DNA from: Pseudomonas sp. CFBP 13711
Lineage (GTDB): Bacteria > Pseudomonadota > Gammaproteobacteria > Pseudomonadales > Pseudomonadaceae
Direction: 5' to 3'
DNA length: 64,000 nucleotides
NCBI RefSeq assembly: GCF_014842265.1
Contig: NZ_JACYVI010000020.1
Location: 1,054 to 65,053, forward strand
Below the pieces are notes generated by a model that was not told the origin of the DNA, ran no database searches, and worked only from the letters and a program-made list of their open reading frames with translations. A program made the position numbers and the translations under genes. Below are positions 1,457-53,650 of the stretch, piece by piece (the stretch's first letter is position 1; every line of letters begins with the position of its first letter).

Positions 1457-2215
1457 ATGAAGGCGATATGGAACATCGTCTTTTTATGGCTGGAGCTCAC
1501 AAGCGCAACCGTATTTGGAGCTGGGGAGAAGCTGGGCCATGCTAAAAGGCCTGACTGCATGGAGGAGTATCAGAGCTTTATCTCGGATAGATATAAAGAC
1601 TATGAGCGCACCTACCATATAACGACTTGCAAAATGTGGCCCGCTACGGGTCTAATGATTTTCGCTACATCGATCATCTTTGGCGAAAATGCTGATTTGG
1701 AGATGGTAGTCCTGGATCCGCTTACAAGAAACGTTATGGGTGAAAATCGCGAATCGGGAGTGCTTGACGCCGGCGCTATTCATAGTCATGAAGTGATAAT
1801 CGATACTGCCCCTTATCAACTGAATGAAAGTCATACTGCGTTCGGGATCCGAATCTTGTGGACAGGATCGTCACAGCCGAACCCCTACAGCTCCACCTCG
1901 CTCAACTTATACATCCTACTCGACAAAATGCTAATTAATATATTGAAAGGGCTGGCCGTCCAGGAGCGTATCGGTGAATGGGACATGCGCTGCGCCGGAA
2001 GTTTCCAAGACAGAACTATGACACTGCGAATGAAGCATGCCCACACTCCTAATGCTGACATAGTTGTTAGGGAGACCGTGATTAATACGACTTCACAAGA
2101 AACAGATGAGAGCTGTAAAACCAACTTCATAAAGCGGAGGGTCAATTCCTATACGTTGAAGTATAACGATGGTTATGCGGCCCCCGACAATCTGAAAGCG
2201 CTAAGTTACAGATGA
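1457..2215 (+). CDS. Exported protein of unknown function, candidate immunity protein 2
   Basis: About 252 residues from the ATG at 1457. I prefer that start because it begins a plausible signal peptide (MKAIWNIVFLWLELTSATVFG). The frame is open further up, to 1418, where it would overlap the preceding gene. The protein is acidic to neutral and mixed alpha/beta, with Cys residues near the N-terminus (PDCMEEY, TTCKMW) and C-terminus (RCAGS, ESCKTN) that could form disulfides in the periplasm. No recognised family. It ends in an ATGA overlap with the next gene. Codon use is strongly AT-rich (many ATA, TTA, AGA-type codons), as expected of recently acquired effector/immunity DNA. Confidence 0.55.
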   Translation: MKAIWNIVFLWLELTSATVFGAGEKLGHAKRPDCMEEYQSFISDRYKDYERTYHITTCKMWPATGLMIFATSIIFGENADLEMVVLDPLTRNVMGENRESGVLDAGAIHSHEVIIDTAPYQLNESHTAFGIRILWTGSSQPNPYSSTSLNLYILLDKMLINILKGLAVQERIGEWDMRCAGSFQDRTMTLRMKHAHTPNADIVVRETVINTTSQETDESCKTNFIKRRVNSYTLKYNDGYAAPDNLKALSYR

Positions 2216-2721
2216 TGGAGAGGCGTGATAAGACAAACTTTTTAAGCCTGGCATTCGTCTGTATATCTTTCACAAGTGGAACCGTATCTGCCAGTGAAGA
2301 CGTCAGTTGCGTCAAAAACGAAACCCCCATTGCCGGTTGCCGTCTTGATGAGCAAAAGCAGCGGTCAGTCTCTCTGTGCAGCAGTGCCAACAAAGAAACC
2401 ATCACCTATCGATTCGGGACGCCTGAAAAGGATGAGATGACGCAAACATTCCGAGCAACCCGCCCGCTTTTTCGGTGGGTAGATAAGGCGACATACACCA
2501 CCTATTTTGGATTTCGCACGGGTGATTACGGATATGTCGTAGGTGTGCCTCAACAAACCTTCGGTGCCAAAGCGTTTCTAGAGGTACTCAAGCTCAACAA
2601 AACCATCATGAGCAAAACCTGCACCGCGAACTCGTTCGGCTCGGAGCATCTGAAGAATGTTGCGATAAAGGAGCTGGATGACGGCTCGGTTCGAGCACAG
2701 CATTTTTCATTTCCGCCGTGA
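2212..2721 (+). CDS. Exported small protein, candidate immunity protein 3
   Basis: 169 residues. The ATG at 2212 overlaps the previous stop (ATGA), and a second ATG follows at 2215. A hydrophobic stretch (FLSLAFVCISFTSGTVSAS) gives a signal peptide, so the mature protein should be periplasmic. It has paired Cys residues (VSCVKNETPIAGC, VSLCSS, SKTC) and a Tyr/Gly-rich middle (TTYFGFRTGDYGYVVG). I do not recognise the family. As last gene of the effector cluster it may be an additional or orphan immunity protein. The transcription unit ends at the bidirectional terminator just downstream. Confidence 0.55.
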   Translation: MMERRDKTNFLSLAFVCISFTSGTVSASEDVSCVKNETPIAGCRLDEQKQRSVSLCSSANKETITYRFGTPEKDEMTQTFRATRPLFRWVDKATYTTYFGFRTGDYGYVVGVPQQTFGAKAFLEVLKLNKTIMSKTCTANSFGSEHLKNVAIKELDDGSVRAQHFSFPP

Positions 2722-2774
2722 TCCACGCATAAAGAGGAACAGTGTCCTGTGGACGCAAACCTTGGTCAAAAAAA

Positions 2775-2800
2775 AAACACCCCGACCACTCGGGGTGTTT
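2775..2800. terminator. Bidirectional intrinsic terminator
   Basis: An 11-bp perfect stem (2775-2785 with 2790-2800) and a 4-base loop. The left flank is a long A tract and the right arm ends in T, so it can stop transcription from both sides. It sits between the effector cluster on + and the DUF1329 gene on -. Confidence 0.85.
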
Positions 2801-2903
2801 ACTTTCTGCGCTATGGGGTTCAGCCATAGGGTAAAACGCGGAGGACTTCAGTGCGCTGTAGCTGTGATCAACGTTGCACGCTCCCCGCTTGTTCGGTCAG
2901 CCG

Positions 2904-4274
2904 TTAGCGCACGCCTTCCTGACGCAGCGCGTTGGGCTGGAAGTCGCTGACAGTGGCGGTAAAGCCGAAGTCATAGGCTTTTTTCTCTTCGTTCTTCATG
3001 CCCAGCGCCAGGTAGCGGCCTGATTGCAGGTCGTACAGAGCTTCGAGGGCATACCACGGCACTTGTTTGTCGTAGTAGTTTTCGGCGTGGGCTTCAGCCA
3101 CGCGCCACAGTTGACCACGGCCGTCATAGTGATCGATGACCGCGGCCTGCCAGGTGTCTTCGTCGATGAAGAAGTCACGTTTGGCGTAGATGTGACGCTG
3201 GCCTTCTTTCAGCGTGGCAGTCACGTGCCAGACGCGACGCAGTTCATAGCGCGCCAGGTCCTGATTGATGTGGCCGGCCTTGATGATGTCGGTGTATTTC
3301 AGCTTCGGATCGTCGAGCTTGTAGCTATCAGAGGCGATGTACATTTCTTGTTTGCCAATCAGCTTCCAGTCGTAGCGGTCTGGCGCGCCGTTGAACATGT
3401 CGAGGTTGTCGGAGGTTCGCAGGCCATCGGCGGCGGTGCCCGGCCCGTCATAGGACACTTGCGGCGCACGGCGTACGCGACGTTGACCCGCGTTATAAAC
3501 CCACGCCGCGCGCGGCTCTTTGACCTGATCGAGGGTTTCGTGCACCAGTAGTACGGAACCTGCCAGACGCGCCGGCGCCGTCACTTCCTGTTTGAAGTAG
3601 AACAGGATGTTGCCCGGGTTCTTCGGATCGAAATCCTTCATCTTGTCGCGGAAGACGAACTCGTCGTGGAAGTACACCGGGTTGAACGAGCCGTTGGTCT
3701 GCGGCGTGGCCTGGGTAACCAGACGCGAGACGCTGCCGCCGCGATAACGGGTGATGTGGTTCCAGATGACCTCAAGGCCATCCTTCGGAATCGGGAACGG
3801 CACTGCGGTTTCGAAATTCTCCAGGCCGTTGCCGCCACCCACCAGCTTGGTGTTGGTGGCGTTTTTCTTGATGGCGGCGAATACGTCAGCGGGCACAGTC
3901 GCGCCACGATGGGACGGGTAGACCGGCATCTTGTAGGTGTCCGGGTAACGCTTGAACATCGCGTACTGGCCCGGGGCGAGTTTGTCCTTGTACTGATCCA
4001 CGTTCTGCGCAGTGATGGTGAACTGCGCTTTTTCATTGGCGTACGGGTTGGCCAGGAAGCCTTTGTCGTCCACGGCGCCAGCATTGGTCGGCATCGGGCT
4101 CCAGGCCGGAATGGTGTTGGCAGCGTTGCCGGCTTTTTCCGCGCCCATCGGCGTCAGCGTGGTGCCCAGCTTGGCGGCTTCGGCGTCGGACACCGCAGCC
4201 ATCACGCTGGTCGCCAACAACGACAGACCCAACACGCCAACCTGCAACAGACCCTTCGTGATTTTCATTTTCAT
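2904..4274 (-). CDS. DUF1329 family exported protein
   Basis: 456 residues. The start at 4274 is chosen because AAGGA lies about 8 bases upstream and the protein then begins with a clean signal peptide (MKMKITKGLLQVGVLGLSLLATSVMAAV). The frame is open further up but that part is a shadow of the preceding gene. The family (outer-membrane lipoprotein-sorting-like, DUF1329) is recognised from motifs such as WNHITRYRGG, YFKQEVTAPARLAG and RDFFIDEDTWQ. These proteins have a LolA/LolB-like beta fold and are nearly always next to a DUF1302 protein, as here with an 8-base gap. Role is unproven. Handling of hydrophobic compounds in the envelope is an inference from the fold and the acyl-CoA ligase nearby. 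Confidence 0.85.
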   Translation of the reverse strand: MKMKITKGLLQVGVLGLSLLATSVMAAVSDAEAAKLGTTLTPMGAEKAGNAANTIPAWSPMPTNAGAVDDKGFLANPYANEKAQFTITAQNVDQYKDKLAPGQYAMFKRYPDTYKMPVYPSHRGATVPADVFAAIKKNATNTKLVGGGNGLENFETAVPFPIPKDGLEVIWNHITRYRGGSVSRLVTQATPQTNGSFNPVYFHDEFVFRDKMKDFDPKNPGNILFYFKQEVTAPARLAGSVLLVHETLDQVKEPRAAWVYNAGQRRVRRAPQVSYDGPGTAADGLRTSDNLDMFNGAPDRYDWKLIGKQEMYIASDSYKLDDPKLKYTDIIKAGHINQDLARYELRRVWHVTATLKEGQRHIYAKRDFFIDEDTWQAAVIDHYDGRGQLWRVAEAHAENYYDKQVPWYALEALYDLQSGRYLALGMKNEEKKAYDFGFTATVSDFQPNALRQEGVR

Positions 4275-6569: not shown

Positions 6570-8246
6570 TCAGAGTGTGGAGAGGAAAGCGCTGTTACTG
6601 CCCTGCCACTCAAGGATGTTCTGACGTATTTGCTTCTTGTCGAGCTTGCCGACGCTGGTCTTGGGAATTTCGGTAACAAGGGCGATCTGGCTGGGGATCG
6701 CCCACTTGTTAATGTGCCCCTGTTCCACAAATGGCTTGAGATGTTCCTTAAGGGTCTTGGCATCCAGGACGTGACCCTCGCGAGCGACCAGCAGCGCAAA
6801 CGGGCGCTCGCCCCACTGGGGGTCGGCGATGCCCACCACAGCCACTTCGCGCACACCGGGATGACGACTGCAGAGATCCTCCAGCTGCAGCGACGATACC
6901 CACTCGCCGCCGGTCTTGATCACGTCTTTGATGCGGTCGCGTATGTCGATCCCGCACATGCTGTCCAGCGTCGCCACGTCTCCGGTGTGCAGCCAGCCCC
7001 CAGCCCACAGTTCGGCGCCCTTCTCCGGCTCGCGGTAATAACCTTCACTCAGCCACGGTGCGCGCAGCACCAGTTCGCCCTGGGTCTCGCCGTCGGAAGG
7101 CAGGAAATTGCCCTCACCATCGACAATCGCCGCCTCAACCAGCACGCCCGGCGCGCCGGCCTTGATTCGGTAGGCGGTCCGTTCGTCTTCACTGGCGGCC
7201 ATCAAGTCGTCATTCAGGTGCGCAACCGACACCAATGGCCCGGTCTCGGACATGCCGTAGGCGGCAGACAGCTGAATGCCTTTGGCCTTGGCTGCCTCGT
7301 ACAGCGAACGATTGAGCGAGCTGCCGCCGATAATGATGTGCCAGCCGGTGAAATCCATGTTCTGGGCGGCTTTGGCGTTGAGGACCATTTGCATGATGGT
7401 GGGCACGCAGTGGGAAAACGTGACCTTTTCCTTCTGCCAGAGCTGCACCAGCAACTCGGGGTCGTAACGGCCGGGATACACCTGTTTCGCGCCCAGCATG
7501 GTCGCGGCATACGGCACGCCCCACGCATGAACGTGGAACATCGGCGTGATTGGCATGTAAACCTTGTCGCCGCCCAGAATGCCTTCGACGCTGCCCATGA
7601 TCGTCGCGACGGCCATGGTGTGCAGCACGAGCTGGCGATGGGTGAAATACACCCCCTTTGGGTTGCCCGTCGTGCCGGTGGTGTAGAACGTAGTCGCCAC
7701 CGAGTTCTCGTCGAAATCCTCGAATTGATAGTGCGGATTCGCCGCGGCCAGCAACGCTTCGTACTCGCCCAAAAGATTGGGCAGGTCGGCGGTCGCGCCA
7801 TCGGTGTCGGTCAGTAACAGTGTTTTTTCGACCGTCGTCAGTTGCCCGGCGATGGCGTTGTAGAGGGGTACGAATTCGCTGTTCACCAGCACGAGCTTGT
7901 CTTCGGCATGGTTCATGGTGAACAGGATCTGCTCGGGCGAAAGCCGGACGTTGATGGTGTGGATCACCGCGCCAATCATCGGAATCGCGAACATGCACTC
8001 CAGGTAACGATGGCTGTCCCAGTCCATCACCGCCACGGTGTCACCCGCCTTGACCCCGGCCGCCGTCAGCGCACCGGCCAGCCTGCAGATGCGCTCGTTG
8101 AGCATTTGATACGAATAGCGCGAATGGTCCCGGTAAACGATTTCACGGTTTTTTTCGTAGCGCACGCCTGACAGCAGCAGTCGCTTGATCAACAGAGGAT
8201 ACTGGTACGCCCCTTCGGCGGGCGGAATCACGCGGGTGTGCAGCAT
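6570..8246 (-). CDS. Medium/long-chain acyl-CoA ligase, AlkK type
   Basis: 558 residues, an adenylate-forming enzyme that activates fatty acids to acyl-CoA through an acyl-AMP. The phosphate-binding loop YTTGTTGNPKGV is near residue 190, the adenine/aryl motif YGMSETGP lies in the middle, the hinge region GWLHTGDVATLD follows, and the catalytic Lys is in KTSVGKLDKKQI near the C-terminus. Length and motif spacing match the AlkK/fadD3-like group rather than FadD proper. It lies upstream of the DUF1302/DUF1329 operon on the same strand, so substrate handling could be shared. Chain-length preference cannot be read from sequence alone. Confidence 0.88.
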   Translation of the reverse strand: MLHTRVIPPAEGAYQYPLLIKRLLLSGVRYEKNREIVYRDHSRYSYQMLNERICRLAGALTAAGVKAGDTVAVMDWDSHRYLECMFAIPMIGAVIHTINVRLSPEQILFTMNHAEDKLVLVNSEFVPLYNAIAGQLTTVEKTLLLTDTDGATADLPNLLGEYEALLAAANPHYQFEDFDENSVATTFYTTGTTGNPKGVYFTHRQLVLHTMAVATIMGSVEGILGGDKVYMPITPMFHVHAWGVPYAATMLGAKQVYPGRYDPELLVQLWQKEKVTFSHCVPTIMQMVLNAKAAQNMDFTGWHIIIGGSSLNRSLYEAAKAKGIQLSAAYGMSETGPLVSVAHLNDDLMAASEDERTAYRIKAGAPGVLVEAAIVDGEGNFLPSDGETQGELVLRAPWLSEGYYREPEKGAELWAGGWLHTGDVATLDSMCGIDIRDRIKDVIKTGGEWVSSLQLEDLCSRHPGVREVAVVGIADPQWGERPFALLVAREGHVLDAKTLKEHLKPFVEQGHINKWAIPSQIALVTEIPKTSVGKLDKKQIRQNILEWQGSNSAFLSTL

Positions 8247-8565
8247 AGGAATCCCTTTTCACGGTGCAGGTGCGGGGGCTGAAAATATGCACTGTAGGGC
8301 CTGGGCGCGTCGATCGGATCAGCCGAAGGGATGAATTGTTGGTCTGAGGTGCCTAAAAAATACCAACTTGGCCTAGGAAATTCTGGACCGGTATAAAGAA
8401 TTTTTTCGGTGCCGCCGAGATCATAAGAAAGGTGTCATTGGAATACCTAACCGCTCAAGAATGTTCCAACGTTGCTGAATAACGATGCAGCAGCGGTCAG
8501 GATTGATTTTCTTCGGATGAAGCTTTAGCTTTCACGTTCAATGCTGGCCATTATGAGGAATCGGT
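8247..8565. other. AT-rich intergenic region before kptA
   Basis: 319 bases without a gene, sitting between divergently transcribed genes. A weak sigma70-like pair is visible on +: TTGGCC at 8368 and TATAAA at 8392, 18 bases apart. It would serve kptA but is only a candidate. Composition shifts from GC-rich core to AT-rich accessory DNA here. Confidence 0.35.
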
Positions 8566-9123
8566 GTGGACAAGAAATTACTTGACGAAAGCAGCAAGTT
8601 TTTAAGTTATGTCTTAAGGCATGAACCAGAAGCCATCGGCTTGGAGCTGGATTCAGATGGATGGGCCGATATCGATGCGCTAATCCTGTGCGCCTCGAGA
8701 AATAATCGCGTTATTGACCGAGACCTGTTGGAGAAGGTGGTTAACGAAAGCGAGAAGAAAAGATTTATTATTTCAGAAAGCCGACAACTTATCCGAGCCG
8801 CGCAAGGTCATTCAACTCGCACAGTAAATCTTCAACACACGCAGACGATACCGCCCACACTCCTCTACCATGGTACGGCCACCAGATTCTTGGAATCAAT
8901 CTATGAGAAAGGACTCATTCCGGGAATACGTCATCATGTGCACTTGTCGGAAAGCCCAGAAACTGCACATTCCGTAGGGCTTCGCTATGGCAAGCCAGTT
9001 GTCCTGAAAATTGAAGCCCTTCGAATGCATGAAATGGGCTTCAAGTTTTATAAGGCCGAAAACGAAGTGTGGCTAATCGATAAAGTCCCTGCGGAGTGGC
9101 TTCCTCTCAAGACTGGTCTATAA
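8566..9123 (+). CDS. kptA: RNA 2'-phosphotransferase (Tpt1/KptA)
   Basis: 185 residues from a GTG start with GAGGA just upstream. The Tpt1/KptA family removes an internal 2'-phosphate from RNA using NAD+, passing through an ADP-ribosylated RNA. The N-terminal winged-helix part has the signature SKFLSYVLRHEPE (catalytic Arg-His). The C-terminal ART-like half has LYHGT near residue 102, HLSE near 126 and the family's terminal VWLIDKVPAEWL. All expected motifs are present and the length is usual, so it should be active. Bacteria have no known tRNA-splicing 2'-phosphate, so the substrate is unknown. The 3' end overlaps the convergent immunity gene by 17 bases and the DNA is AT-rich like that locus. 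Confidence 0.92.
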   Translation: MDKKLLDESSKFLSYVLRHEPEAIGLELDSDGWADIDALILCASRNNRVIDRDLLEKVVNESEKKRFIISESRQLIRAAQGHSTRTVNLQHTQTIPPTLLYHGTATRFLESIYEKGLIPGIRHHVHLSESPETAHSVGLRYGKPVVLKIEALRMHEMGFKFYKAENEVWLIDKVPAEWLPLKTGL

Positions 9124-9511
9124 CTTCGAATGACTGCGCTACGATGTGAAGTGCTGCCCCTTCAGATTGAAGATACAACCGAAAGTGCCTAAAATTGGCC
9201 GAGCTAGACATTTTATTAGCGATATCCACGATTTCTGAGCTTTTATACTCAACCAAGCAACTCAGCAACGATAAATCCCGGTCGTCAGGGCAACTAAAAA
9301 AGCTATGACCCGGGAACGGAGTCTTTACAAAATAGCTAGGCCAGAAAAATCGAAGGCTTTTCTTTACGCGTGTAGGCGCAGAAAGCTCCGGATCGTAATA
9401 TATATCGAGTGTAAGATAGTTCTCAGCATAAGACATTGAAAAATCATCTTCACCATCTGAAGGTAGAAAGGTATCAAGATCTAAAAGCTTTTGGGGTTGA
9501 GATAGCTTCAT
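9107..9511 (-). CDS. Candidate immunity protein of the adjacent toxin
   Basis: 134 residues, no signal peptide, acidic (DLDTFLPSDGEDD), mixed alpha/beta. I do not recognise a family. It starts 6 bases after the stop of the 463-residue toxin-like gene on the same strand, which is the usual effector-immunity arrangement. Cytoplasmic location would match a nuclease-type toxin. Its 3' end overlaps kptA tail-to-tail by 17 bases. AT-rich codon use, like the toxin C-terminus. Confidence 0.6.
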   Translation of the reverse strand: MKLSQPQKLLDLDTFLPSDGEDDFSMSYAENYLTLDIYYDPELSAPTRVKKSLRFFWPSYFVKTPFPGHSFFSCPDDRDLSLLSCLVEYKSSEIVDIANKMSSSANFRHFRLYLQSEGAALHIVAQSFEVIDQS

Positions 9512-9517
9512 TAATTA

Positions 9518-10909
9518 TTACCTTCTTGCATTAAGTACGGAGCCGCCGTAATTCTTTCTAAGCTGCTCTTTGACAAGCTCGTCGAAAGTTGTATTCTCAA
9601 AAGCTACAACACCTGTTTTATTAGCCCCATACCACTGACTCTTGGGTATACCAGCATTTATAAGCGCTGTTGAGCTTCGGGTATTTGCTATGACATTGTG
9701 CCCATCAACAACAACGTAATCAAGAGGTACTTGCCTAGGGGTTATGGCGCCAGTCTCCAAGGCACTCGTGAGATCGGACACTGTATTTATGGGCTGCCCT
9801 GCAGCCATAGAATAAATATTTTGTCCGTCTTTGCTAAACGCCTTGGTCGGCTTAGACATTTTTTGTGCGAACACACTGTCTTCCAATACACCTAAAACGG
9901 GATTTCCTTTAGGAGGTGGTTCGTCGTCTTTTTTATCAGTTTTTGGTTTTTCTGGCTGTATCGGGGCGCTAGTTTCTTGCTCTTTTTTAGTAATTTCTGG
10001 CCTTTCTGTCTGCTTTTTAATCTCGGCTTCAAGTTCTTGTTTAGCCAACGGTATCGGCTCGCGTACTCGCAATTCAGGAAGTGCCAACAAGCCTTGTTCA
10101 TTTCGAGCTAACCAACCAGCAATCTCTTTGTTAGTCATGTCTGCTTGAAGCTTTGCGCTACGCGCGGCAATGCTGTCCAGGCTGCTCACGACTCCAGCCT
10201 TAATCTGTCCTCTAGAGATATAAGTAACAATGGCTGTCAGCAACAGCATTACCAACTGCTCCTGACCTCTGGCAAGCTTCCTCGCTGCTGCGTCTATACG
10301 CTCGTCCACTATCCATGCGGACGCGCCTGTAGGGTCAAGTCCGGCAGGTCTGACGCCATCTTCAGCGTTCCATGCGGTAACGATGCCCTCATAAATGCTT
10401 GCGAGACAAGGAGGTAGCCCCTGGTAGAAATAATCGGCGATGGCTGAAAGCCCCATCCCCAGCAGAATCAAGTTGCCAACTTGCGCGCCTATGCCCCCAC
10501 CCACCACAGCTCCCGGTAACGCACCCGCTCCAAACGCTAGCGATCCAGCCGCCCCACCGGCAACGGCCCCTACAGCTACGCTGCCGCCCATGATCATGGC
10601 GACCTCTTTAACCAATTGCAGCAACGTGGGCAGGATATCGGCGATGTTGATGGATGCCCATTTGCGCGTCAGATCTAGTTGGATAATGGGATAGGACTTG
10701 GCCATCGCCGACCTGACCGATTCGATGCGGCTTCCCCCTACACTGCCGTAGGCCAGAGTGGCCTCGGTGCTCACGCGTCGAGTGAAGCCATTCCAACTGC
10801 CGAGCGTGCTTTCCCAGCCCTGATCTAACGACTGGTTTAAATTACCGAACTTTTCTTCAAGATTACGCGCTACATCATCCCAACTGGGAACATCGGTTAG
10901 AAAATCCAT
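9518..10909 (-). CDS. Polymorphic toxin with glycine-zipper N-terminus and ParB-like C-terminal domain
   Basis: 463 residues. Residues about 80-150 are rich in small residues (GGSVAVGAVAGGAAGSLAFG), a glycine-zipper membrane segment as in type VI effectors with DUF6861-type N-termini. Residues about 290-335 form a charged Lys/Pro/Glu linker. The last ~120 residues look like a separate toxin module. Their motif VDGHNVIANTRSSTALINAG resembles the N(N/T)RS..AL..AGI pattern of ParB/sulfiredoxin-like nuclease toxins; this assignment is tentative. A small gene for a likely immunity protein follows after 6 bases. No VgrG, PAAR or chaperone gene is adjacent, so the delivery route is not visible. The N-terminal half is GC-richer than the C-terminal half, fitting toxin-domain exchange. 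Confidence 0.65.
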   Translation of the reverse strand: MDFLTDVPSWDDVARNLEEKFGNLNQSLDQGWESTLGSWNGFTRRVSTEATLAYGSVGGSRIESVRSAMAKSYPIIQLDLTRKWASINIADILPTLLQLVKEVAMIMGGSVAVGAVAGGAAGSLAFGAGALPGAVVGGGIGAQVGNLILLGMGLSAIADYFYQGLPPCLASIYEGIVTAWNAEDGVRPAGLDPTGASAWIVDERIDAAARKLARGQEQLVMLLLTAIVTYISRGQIKAGVVSSLDSIAARSAKLQADMTNKEIAGWLARNEQGLLALPELRVREPIPLAKQELEAEIKKQTERPEITKKEQETSAPIQPEKPKTDKKDDEPPPKGNPVLGVLEDSVFAQKMSKPTKAFSKDGQNIYSMAAGQPINTVSDLTSALETGAITPRQVPLDYVVVDGHNVIANTRSSTALINAGIPKSQWYGANKTGVVAFENTTFDELVKEQLRKNYGGSVLNARR

Positions 10910-45051: not shown

Positions 45052-45669
45052 ATGCAATTGCGCCACGTACTCGTATTCAGTCTGATCGCCGTGCTCGCCG
45101 GCTGTGCCGGCATGTCCTCCCGCGAAGCCGTGCAAGGCAAGGGGGACGCCAATCAATGGCGTGTGAACAAAGAACAACTCAGCAGCCTCGATGGCTGGCA
45201 GATCAACGGCAAGGTCGGCATCCGCGCGCCAAAGGATTCCGGCAGCGGCACGCTGTTCTGGCTGCAACGCCAGGATTACTACGACATTCGCCTGTCGGGC
45301 CCGCTCGGTCGCGGTGCTGCCCGCCTGACGGGTCGACCTGGCGCTGTGTCGCTGGAAGTCGCCAATCAGGGCCGCTACGACGCGCCGGACCCGGAAACCC
45401 TGCTTAAGGATCAGCTCGGCTGGAAATTGCCGGTGTCGCATCTGGTCTGGTGGGTGCGCGGTTTGCCCGCGCCGGACAGCAAAAGCAACCTGACCCTTGA
45501 CGGTGACAGTCGCCTGGCCAGTCTTGCGCAGGATGGCTGGCAGATCGAATACCTGAGCTACACCCAGCAAAAAGGTTTCTGGCTACCTGAACGCATGAAG
45601 CTGCACGGGCAGGATCTGGACGTCACGCTGGTCATCAAGGACTGGCAACCACGCAAACTGGGGCAATGA
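45052..45669 (+). CDS. lolB: Outer-membrane lipoprotein receptor
   Basis: 205 residues. Receives lipoproteins from LolA and inserts them in the outer membrane; it is itself a lipoprotein (lipobox AVLAGCAG). The body has [22 protein letters not shown] and [12 protein letters not shown], as in LolB. Overlaps ispE by 4 bases. Confidence 0.94.
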
Positions 45670-46523
45670 GCATGTCGCAACCACGACTGACACTGCCCGC
45701 CCCTGCCAAACTGAATCTGATGCTGCACATCACCGGACGCCGCGCCGACGGTTATCACGAACTGCAGACGCTGTTCCAGTTTCTCGATTACGGCGACGAG
45801 CTCAGCTTCGCGCTTCGTGACGACGGCGAAGTGCGACTGCAGACGGAAATTGCCGACGTCCCCCACGACAGTAATCTGATTGTCAGAGCGGCTCGCGCCC
45901 TCAAGCAACAATCGGGTTGCCCGCTTGGCGTTGATATCTGGCTGAAAAAAGTCCTGCCCATGGGTGGCGGCATCGGCGGCGGAAGTTCCGACGCGGCAAC
46001 CACACTGCTGGGCCTGAATCACCTTTGGCAACTGGGTTGGGATGAGGATCGGCTGGCGGCGCTGGGCCTGCTGCTTGGGGCTGACGTGCCGGTTTTCGTG
46101 CGCGGACATGCTGCTTTTGCCGAAGGCATCGGCGAGATCCTGACCCCCGTAACCCCCGAAGAACCTTGGTATCTGGTGCTAGTGCCGCAAGTATCTGTAA
46201 GTACAGCAGAAATTTTTTCAGATCCACTGTTGACACGTGACACTCCTCCCATTAAAGTGCGCCCCGTTCCCAAGGGAAACAGTCGAAATGACTGCTTACC
46301 GGTTGTAACGAGGCGGTATCCAAAAGTTGGTAACGCTTTGAATTTGTTAGGTAAATTTACCGAAGCAAAATTAACCGGAACTGGAAGTTGTGTGTTTGGG
46401 GCCTTCCCAAGCAAAGCTGAAGCTGATAAAGTCTCGGCCCTTCTTACAGAGACCCTTACAGGGTTTGTAGCAAAAGGCGCAAACATCTCGATGTTGCACC
46501 GGAAGTTACAGGCGCTGCTCTAA
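45666..46523 (+). CDS. ispE: 4-diphosphocytidyl-2-C-methyl-D-erythritol kinase
   Basis: 285 residues. GHMP kinase of the MEP isoprenoid pathway. N-terminal [22 protein letters not shown], the ATP loop [18 protein letters not shown] near residue 98, and [12 protein letters not shown] near residue 240. From about base 46190 to the stop the codon choice changes abruptly to AT-ending codons (TTA, GTA, ACA, GGA, AAA), while the first two thirds are GC-rich. The protein motifs remain intact, so it is not a broken gene. A consensus-like promoter lies in this segment. Confidence 0.95.
46230..46258 (+). promoter_or_regulatory. Candidate internal promoter in the 3' third of ispE
   Basis: TTGACA at 46230-46235 and TAAAGT at 46253-46258 with a 17-base spacer, near-consensus sigma70. 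It lies about 300 bases before tRNA-Gln and could drive the tRNA and prs. Found at the start of the AT-rich codon stretch. Confidence 0.45.
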
Positions 46524-46559
46524 AAGGAACCGAGTGCCAGGCACTCGTGCAACAGATAC

Positions 46560-46634
46560 AGGGGCGTCGCCAAGCGGTAAGGCAGCAGGTTTTGATCCTG
46601 CCATGCGTTGGTTCGAATCCAGCCGCCCCTGCCA
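46560..46634 (+). tRNA. tRNA-Gln (TTG)
   Basis: 75 bases with encoded CCA. Acceptor stem AGGGGCG/CGCCCCT, D-arm GCC-AAGCGGTAA-GGC, anticodon loop TTTTGAT with anticodon TTG between GCAGG and CCTGC, T-loop TTCGAAT. Lies between ispE and prs, as in other pseudomonads. Confidence 0.97.
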
Positions 46635-46681
46635 TTTTCCTATAGTCATCCAGGCATACCCTAAGCCTCCAGGTACTGCGC

Positions 46682-47623
46682 GTGTCCAAGATGATGGTCT
46701 TTACGGGGAACGCCAACCCCGATCTGGCTCGGCGTGTCGTACGTCAGCTGCATATCCCTCTCGGTGACATCTCTGTTGGAAAGTTCTCCGACGGTGAGAT
46801 TACCGCTGAGATCAATGAAAACGTTCGCGGTAAAGACGTCTTCATTATTCAGCCGACCTGCGCTCCGACCAACGATAACCTGATGGAACTCGTCGTGATG
46901 GCAGACGCCTTCCGTCGCTCCTCGGCCACTCGTATCACTGCTGTGATCCCTTACTTTGGTTATGCCCGCCAGGATCGCCGTCCGCGTTCTGCCCGTGTGG
47001 CTATCAGCGCTAAAGTGGTTGCGGACATGCTCACCGTCGTCGGTATCGACCGTGTGCTGACTGTCGACCTGCACGCTGACCAGATTCAAGGCTTCTTCGA
47101 TATTCCGGTAGATAACATCTACGGCTCCCCGGTTCTGGTGGATGACATCGAAGACCAACGCTTCGAAAACTTGATGATTGTCTCCCCGGATATCGGCGGC
47201 GTCGTGCGTGCACGTGCTGTTGCCAAATCCCTGGGCGTCGATCTGGGCATCATCGACAAGCGCCGCGAGAAGGCCAACCACTCCGAAGTGATGCACATCA
47301 TCGGTGACGTTGAAGGCCGTACCTGTATTCTCGTCGACGACATGGTCGATACCGCGGGCACTCTGTGCCATGCGGCCAAGGCGCTGAAAGAACACGGCGC
47401 TGCCAAGGTCTTCGCGTACTGCACGCACCCTGTTCTGTCGGGCCGTGCGATCGAGAACATCGAAAATTCCGTGCTGGACGAACTGGTGGTGACGAACACC
47501 ATCCCGTTGTCCGCTGCTGCACAGGCCTGTGACCGTATCCGCCAACTGGATATCGCACCGGTAGTCGCTGAGGCGATGCGTCGCATCAGCAACGAAGAAT
47601 CGATCAGCGCGATGTTCCGATAA
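46682..47623 (+). CDS. prs: Ribose-phosphate pyrophosphokinase
   Basis: 313 residues from a GTG start. Makes PRPP from ribose-5-phosphate and ATP for nucleotide, His and Trp synthesis, and supplies hpt and upp in this window. Motifs: [25 protein letters not shown], the PRPP loop [14 protein letters not shown]. Strong terminator downstream. Confidence 0.97.
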
Positions 47624-47656
47624 GGGTCCTGCCCTGCCGAACCATCCGTTGACGAA

Positions 47657-47699
47657 AAGCGCCCCGCCCCGACACTCAATGCCGGGGCGGGGCTTTTTT
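47657..47699 (+). terminator. Intrinsic terminator between prs and rplY
   Basis: Stem GCCCCGCCCCG (47661-47671) with CGGGGCGGGGC (47683-47693), followed by six T. One of the most stable hairpins in the window. Confidence 0.93.
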
Positions 47700-47763
47700 G
47701 CCCATACCGTGTCAGGCGCTGGTCGCAAACGCCGCTCGGTCATGGCTATTTTGGAGATACAAA

Positions 47764-53573: not shown

Positions 53574-53650
53574 GGCTACATAGCTCAGTTGGTTAGAGCA
53601 TAGCATTCATAATGCTGGGGTCCGGGGTTCAAGTCCCTGTGTAGCCACCA
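53574..53650 (+). tRNA. tRNA-Met (CAT), elongator
   Basis: 77 bases with encoded CCA. Acceptor GGCTACA/TGTAGCC, D-arm GCTCAGTTGGTTAGAGC, anticodon loop TTCATAA (anticodon CAT), T-arm CGGGGTTCAAGTCCCTG. The paired first position excludes initiator tRNA; the acceptor sequence fits Met rather than Ile2. Confidence 0.95.

Follow-up and report, generated by a model that had tools for sequence, protein, structure and literature searches.

Why does the ispE gene of a Pseudomonas genome change its codon usage so abruptly before its end, and does this part of the gene carry anything besides protein code? The window, i.e. the whole stretch of 64,000 nt that we analyzed, holds the gene in an order that we take to be lolB, ispE, tRNA-Gln(TTG), prs and rplY, all names except ispE having been assigned from the proteins. 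The genes around the switch are:

45666–46523, + strand: ispE coding sequence (list of open reading frames; TIGR00154 match of 294.9 bits), with the embedded elements in codons ~171–285
46560–46634, + strand: tRNA-Gln(UUG), anticodon TTG in the DNA
46682–47623, + strand: prs (ribose-phosphate pyrophosphokinase), an open reading frame probably co-transcribed with tRNA-Gln

Among the named loci, the nearest IspE proteins are those of P. petrae and P. graminis (98%). GC content per 200-nt window falls from 0.60–0.62 before position 46200 to 0.44–0.46 after it. The GC content of 46200–46499 is 0.46 and the mean of the 64-kb window is 0.595; only 2.3% of the 300-nt windows in the 64 kb are as low or lower, and they include two further places, at about 1500–3000 and 8000–10000. 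The sequence-only reading had described a change from GC-ending to AT-ending codons over the last ~330 nt of ispE, and this was borne out: GC3 drops from 0.67 over the first 165 codons to 0.41 over the last 110, with an onset at about codon 171–176 (46176–46191). The extent it had given, 46190–46634, places the switch correctly but reaches too far, since it spans the tRNA, whereas the composition change stops at the end of ispE. The reduced GC3 of the last 110 codons was found in 36 of 36 Pseudomonas genomes and 14 other listed loci. GC-rich loci display the drop as well, for example from 0.93 to 0.55 in L141. The DNA of 46150–46700 was matched in 298 of 298 Pseudomonas genomes, with nearly full query cover and 90–100% identity among the best matches listed; the weakest of the 298 may depend largely on the tRNA.

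The same reading had pointed to TTGACA-17-TAAAGT, which is indeed present at 46230–46258. It spans IspE codons 189–198 and lies 291 nt 5′ of the ispE stop. This is the sole promoter-like match in 45600–47750. As 0.7 matches are expected by shuffling, it stays within chance in a single genome, and what takes it beyond chance is the comparative data. Promoters of stable RNAs are built from an AT-rich UP element, a −35, a −10 and a GC-rich discriminator, and the window displays the following elements:

46208–46221, + strand: UP-like AT run AGAAATTTTTTCAG, 5′ of the −35 (from the sequence)
46230–46235, + strand: −35 hexamer TTGACA, codons Leu189–Thr190 (conservation)
46253–46258, + strand: −10 hexamer TAAAGT after a 17-nt spacer (conservation)
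46259–46265, + strand: GC-rich discriminator GCGCCCC (composition)

Transcription would start at about 46265–46267. In the 85 promoter-bearing loci, a 6-nt segment that begins 18 nt 5′ of the −35 has an AT content of 82% against a background of 41%, and the discriminator position one of 18%. These features support a complete, predicted sigma70 promoter of the stable-RNA type inside ispE, presumably used by the sigma70 RNA polymerase. By eye, we also noticed TTCCCA-17-TAAAGT near 46404–46432, nearer the tRNA, as a candidate second promoter.

To assess how far the promoter extends, we collected all genomes outside the window's genus but within its class, presumably Gammaproteobacteria from the usual placing of Pseudomonas, that had an ispE match. 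This resulted in 130 class loci; class genomes lacking a match fall outside the count (24 of 114 in one set, one each in two others). All but one of the fetched loci were counted, as L343, with an internal stop, gave too short a reading. The promoter occurs at the same codon (189) in 102 of these 129 loci, with a spacer of 17 in 102 of 102 and an exact TTGACA in 93. The first 94 loci, three of them from the same family, are mostly near-complete matches, while the 36 later ones are partial, weaker or from outside the first batches. A promoter with at least 9 of 12 matching positions was found at codon 189 in 84 of the first 94, always with spacer 17. A synonymous shuffling that kept each gene's own codon usage gave 18 instead of 84 at this threshold, and 4.8 instead of 78 when at least 10 of 12 positions had to match. 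In the later set, 18 of the 35 counted loci carry the promoter, which pulls the overall share down. The class loci come mostly from different families yet are related, and the tests across loci ignore this kinship. Outside the class, only 2 of 20 loci, picked from 88 matches, had a promoter near the codon-189 place. By this distribution, the predicted promoter is much older than the genus Pseudomonas.

We then compared synonymous-site conservation along ispE. The Pseudomonas set was reduced from 146 loci to 135 distinct sequences and to 128 below 97% identity. In 15-codon windows, synonymous identity among the 128 is 0.44–0.71 up to codon 175 and 0.73–0.99 past codon 171, which contradicts free variation of these sites. 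Both −35 codons are identical in 128 of 128. The most frozen part is the following:

46383–46454, + strand: codons 240–263 (15-codon means of 0.99 and 0.94)

Codons 241–255 reach 0.99, and single codons inside this part fall below the window means (0.59 for codon 260). This part lies 117–188 nt downstream of the predicted transcript start. Neighboring genes served for comparison in 80 named Pseudomonas loci, of which a redundancy filter left 26 to 79 sequences per gene. Mean synonymous identity is 0.67 for a TPR gene, 0.63 for lolB, 0.76 for prs and 0.78 for rplY, with individual prs and rplY blocks of up to 0.90–0.92; the ispE blocks past codon 181 display 0.77–1.00. Across the class (95 sequences), the excess of synonymous identity over expectation is above 0.25 at codons 188–190 and 197–199 only, i.e. 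at the two hexamers. At codons 189 and 190 it amounts to 0.88 and 0.87 observed versus 0.22 and 0.28 expected, so that the −35 codons are almost fixed, in line with the earlier proposal of a promoter under selection. Genera differ in how far the conservation reaches. Ten species of one genus of the same order display 0.67–0.83 through the leader and 0.47–0.66 before it. In another genus (16 species), the 0.79–0.85 near the promoter does not leave the span of 0.42–0.88 seen in the gene's own 5′ portion.

An RNA element had been suggested for the same stretch, and a conserved fold was found downstream of the predicted start. Helices were defined by mean pair probabilities over 43 sequences. They amount to eight in the Pseudomonadaceae leader of ~290 nt, with these elements in the window:

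46266–46559, + strand: predicted leader RNA within ispE and the ispE–tRNA gap (pair probabilities, pair counts, fold z-scores)
46280–46294, + strand: leader hairpin
46299–46378, + strand: leader three-way junction with arms 46309–46340 and 46343–46369
46393–46413, 46416–46438 and 46480–46497, + strand: leader hairpins
46531–46547, + strand: hairpin (helix 8) between the ispE stop and tRNA-Gln, with compensatory changes in 6 of 7 pairs

From the predicted start to the ispE stop, the RNA folds better than its codon-permuted versions in 17 of 17 hand-chosen Pseudomonas, with a mean fold z of −2.84 (range −1.51 to −4.41) and a mean of −0.45 in a control region. In an alignment of 55 sequences (54 distinct), 93.9% of the cells of the 61 pairs are standard, a percentage that is partly circular because the sequences that defined the structure partly coincide with these and belong to the same genus. 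Changes on both sides of a pair affect 20 pairs; shuffled controls gave 9.9 ± 1.7 such pairs and slid controls no more than 11. Of the 20, 14 belong to ispE and the remaining 6 to the hairpin that follows its stop. Counted by cells, such changes number 118, compared with 32.5 in shuffled controls and no more than 36 in slid ones, and on each of the five covariation measures 0 of 500 shuffles reached the real alignment. Covariation is clearest in the arm 46343–46369 and in the hairpin 46531–46547, and as many as 21 of 54 sequences fail to pair at the base of helix 46309–46340. RNAalifold gave a sparser, partly overlapping fold of the same alignment that has 51 pairs and two-sided changes in 16 of these. 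An Rfam scan of 45600–46800 returned the tRNA alone above the gathering score and no family on the leader. On the minus strand, the hairpin 46531–46547 is terminator-like, with a T run after it.

Beyond the family the fold becomes modest. No pair of a class-wide common fold exceeds a mean probability of 0.25 (n = 82). In 47 loci (every second of the 94, four of them promoter-less), the mean fold z is −1.49 versus −0.22 in the control region (p = 1e-5). In the other half, the mean over the 41 loci with the promoter is −0.90, calculated for the leader region alone, and the ten promoter-less loci of the first 94 have a mean of −0.50. L233 and L235, with neither promoter nor tRNA, also fold unusually well. 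A structured leader is thus well supported, from the comparative pairing data, for Pseudomonadaceae only.

The presence of the promoter is associated with that of the tRNA gene. The codon-189 promoter was detected in 98 of 116 class loci with an adjoining tRNA-Gln and in 4 of 13 without (Fisher p = 9e-5, kinship ignored); two of these 4 lie close to contig ends. L174 and L313, scored as lacking the tRNA, reach or nearly reach the end of their contigs, and excluding them gives p = 1e-5. At L158 and L189, the promoter is kept with no adjoining tRNA-Gln. Conversely, 18 of the 116 tRNA-bearing loci lack the codon-189 promoter; 7 of them have another promoter-like match before the tRNA, and in the other 11 the scan detects no replacement. 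Among the first 94 loci, another promoter before tRNA or prs accompanies 7 of 10 loci without the codon-189 promoter versus 8 of 84 with it (p = 6e-5, kinship ignored). The 17 promoter-less loci of the later set divide into 8 with some other match and 9 without. Some of the alternative matches come from AT-rich genomes and may be chance. Six of the nine loci that lack both tRNA and codon-189 promoter have TTG(A/C)(A/T/C)A-18-TA(A/C/G)A(A/C)T followed by a GC-rich discriminator, 203–230 nt 5′ of the ispE stop. Loci observed to share a spacer-18 site in ispE and to have no tRNA-Gln before prs are L233, L235, L236, L333, L336, L337 and L312 (E. coli K-12).

Outside the class, tRNA-Gln(UUG) is located 3′ of ispE in 12 of the 20 loci (L271–L290, from other classes of the phylum). 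With the tRNA in 12 and the promoter in 2 of the 20, the order of ispE and tRNA-Gln seems to predate the embedded promoter. A BLAST search of the own genome (49 contigs) with the tRNA-Gln of the window matched this gene alone, so the putative promoter may serve an indispensable gene.

As the −35 hexamer is read in frame, we asked what it does to the protein. Among the promoter-bearing IspE proteins, 83 of 85 (window included) have Thr at residue 190, as do 3 of 10 promoter-less class proteins. The later set gives Thr in 18 of 18 loci that carry the promoter and in 2 of 17 that lack it. This comparison is partly circular, since TTGACA in frame reads Leu-Thr only, and the promoter-less loci alone are informative. 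Among the other-class proteins, where the alignment is poor, Thr occurs at this residue in 2 of 20. Leu-Thr can be coded in 24 ways, and TTG-ACA is the one that makes a −35. It is kept in only 1 of 27 promoter-less class loci, L226. L233, L235 and L333, with neither tRNA nor promoter, retain Leu-Thr through other codons, which indicates that the enzyme tolerates, and may favour, Leu-Thr anyway. From these sequence comparisons, the promoter may fix two amino acids of IspE.

Our preferred reading, to which we assign a probability of about 0.87, is that the 3′ third of ispE is in dual use: it would encode the kinase's C-terminal region and at the same time hold a strong sigma70 promoter for leader, tRNA-Gln and prs as well as the folded leader of Pseudomonadaceae. 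The embedded promoter would start transcription about 295 nt 5′ of tRNA-Gln(UUG), and the transcript probably extends into prs. A scan of 45600–47750 detected no terminator-like site on the + strand, which suggests that leader, tRNA-Gln(UUG) and prs are joined in one transcript. This transcript would not take up ribosomes at the start of ispE, and the 290-nt leader could therefore fold. In Pseudomonadaceae it would fold into a conserved multi-hairpin RNA, and promoter and leader would jointly freeze the synonymous sites and impose AT-ending codons. Processing of the tRNA would then cut the leader away and presumably release it. Least certain is what the fold does: our guess is that it shields the long untranslated leader against nucleases and Rho-dependent termination, or presents the 5′ end of the tRNA for processing. 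As to a possible avoidance of Rho sites by low C, the C content of 8 sequences is 0.21–0.24 in the leader versus 0.27–0.34 upstream, but G is lower there too. A more far-reaching version, in which the Pseudomonadaceae ispE 3′ end combines the enzyme with a class-wide promoter that sets Leu-Thr and a released, previously undescribed structured leader RNA that acts independently, for example in a control of prs and PRPP matched to tRNA-Gln output, is speculative and in our estimate rather unlikely.

The strongest competitor of the dual-use reading is that the promoter alone is functional, that the leader was frozen only as a by-product, whether of the promoter region, of codon choice or of low mutation, and that the fold has no job. 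The restriction of the class-wide synonymous excess to the promoter speaks for it, as do the lack of the fold beyond Pseudomonadaceae, where the fold excess is modest, and the genus of 16 species whose leader is no better conserved than its own 5′ part. It does not account for the position of the Pseudomonas freeze, which peaks at codons 240–263, far past the predicted start, or for the compensatory changes, which exceed both shuffled and slid controls and mostly fall within ispE. The genus of 10 species is also raised throughout its leader. On balance, we consider this explanation improbable, to about the same degree as the far-reaching version above. Much less probable still is a translational constraint, by which rare AT-ending codons would delay translation so that IspE can fold. 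That such codons are atypical of ispE speaks for this idea, but it fails to predict fixed hexamers with a spacer of 17, the association with tRNA-Gln or the compensatory changes.

Two further explanations retain hardly any probability. The AT-rich 3′ part could stem from recombination or a mobile element, as the sequence-only reading had also proposed, and the abrupt composition change does adjoin a tRNA gene; tRNA genes are common integration sites. Against this, the drop is present in all 36 Pseudomonas genomes, and nearest relatives agree by both gene parts. Pairwise distances from the 5′ and 3′ parts of ispE correlate with a Spearman coefficient of 0.77 (1500 sampled pairs) and, for the window against the rest, of 0.46, and either part yields the same 7 among the 8 sequences nearest to it in the window. 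The phylogenetic discordance of the 3′ part that had been envisaged did not appear in this simple distance test, and the plasmid and phage collections held no match to the AT-rich segment. A recombinant or mobile origin was rejected on the genus-wide drop, the concordant distances and the lack of a plasmid or phage match. An overlapping or antisense protein gene could likewise freeze synonymous sites, and a minus-strand open reading frame of 155 aa does overlap the region. Every other frame is open in at most 4% of the 128 sequences, however, and the changes track RNA helices. With no other conserved reading frame in these sequences, an overlapping gene was rejected as well.

The dual-use reading can be compared with three known arrangements. 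The prs P1 promoter of E. coli also resembles sigma70 promoters, has a GC-rich discriminator and lies in the 3′ part of ispE (ychB). In E. coli K-12, we found TTGATG-18-TAGAAT-ACGCCC about 190 nt 5′ of the ispE stop, with an expected start at −302 from prs; the mapped E. coli prs leader is reportedly 302 nt, from the work of Hove-Jensen. The window promoter is not at this site, being 291 nt before the stop instead of about 190–230 nt. The E. coli promoter is located ~100 nt further 3′ in ispE and has a spacer of 18 instead of 17, the annotated record contains no tRNA-Gln between ispE and prs, and IspE has Leu-Pro, not Leu-Thr, at the −35 place. Sigma70 promoters of rRNA and tRNA genes share with the window promoter the UP-like run, −35, 17-nt spacer, −10 and GC-rich discriminator, whereas the latter lies within a protein gene, ~295 nt and not 4–54 nt from its tRNA, and precedes a long structured leader. 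Intragenic operon promoters are known, for example a heat-shock promoter in dnaG for rpoD. Like them, the window promoter would serve downstream genes from within an upstream coding sequence; it differs in being kept in 102 of 129 class loci and in having a hexamer that specifies two amino acids of the host protein.

Among the papers listed by searches of open-access PMC, no title or abstract opening describes this ispE promoter or leader; supplementary TSS tables may already hold the start. The main texts of PMC5870498 (PA4669, PA4670, prs), PMC8297930 (PA4669, PA4670, ipk, prs), PMC9788540 (ispE, prs) and PMC4176332 (ispE, prs) do not contain the names given in brackets.

Intragenic promoters are commonly viewed as weak, recent or noisy. 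The ispE promoter, in contrast, appears to hold its codon, spacing and hexamer across most of the sampled families, at a place where synonymous codons are otherwise free. A neighboring tRNA may have kept residues of an essential enzyme in place. Where the tRNA is lost, the promoter tends to vanish, and several such lineages show a second promoter-like site in ispE, which makes the locus a natural experiment on codon sharing between regulatory DNA and protein. IspE is a drug target, and some of its conserved residues may mirror DNA rather than enzyme function. The proposed structured leader RNA is directly testable in Pseudomonas.

The upstream regions of other tRNA genes in the same genome put the promoter scan into perspective. 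Of 20 such regions, picked from 57 tRNA matches, 12 contain a match of at least 8 of 12 positions with a GC-rich discriminator, 2 a poorer match and 6 none, which indicates that the scan is imperfect. The expected start of the 12 good promoters is 4–54 nt from the tRNA, and that of the ispE promoter ~295 nt. In divergent Pseudomonadaceae (L030, L141–L146, L229–L231), the place of the single tRNA-Gln(UUG) gene is taken by two or three such genes in tandem. Elsewhere in the window, tRNA-Met at 53574–53650 (L298) is preceded within a few nt by TTGACA-17-AATAAT, with an AT-rich run 5′ of it and a GC-rich discriminator.
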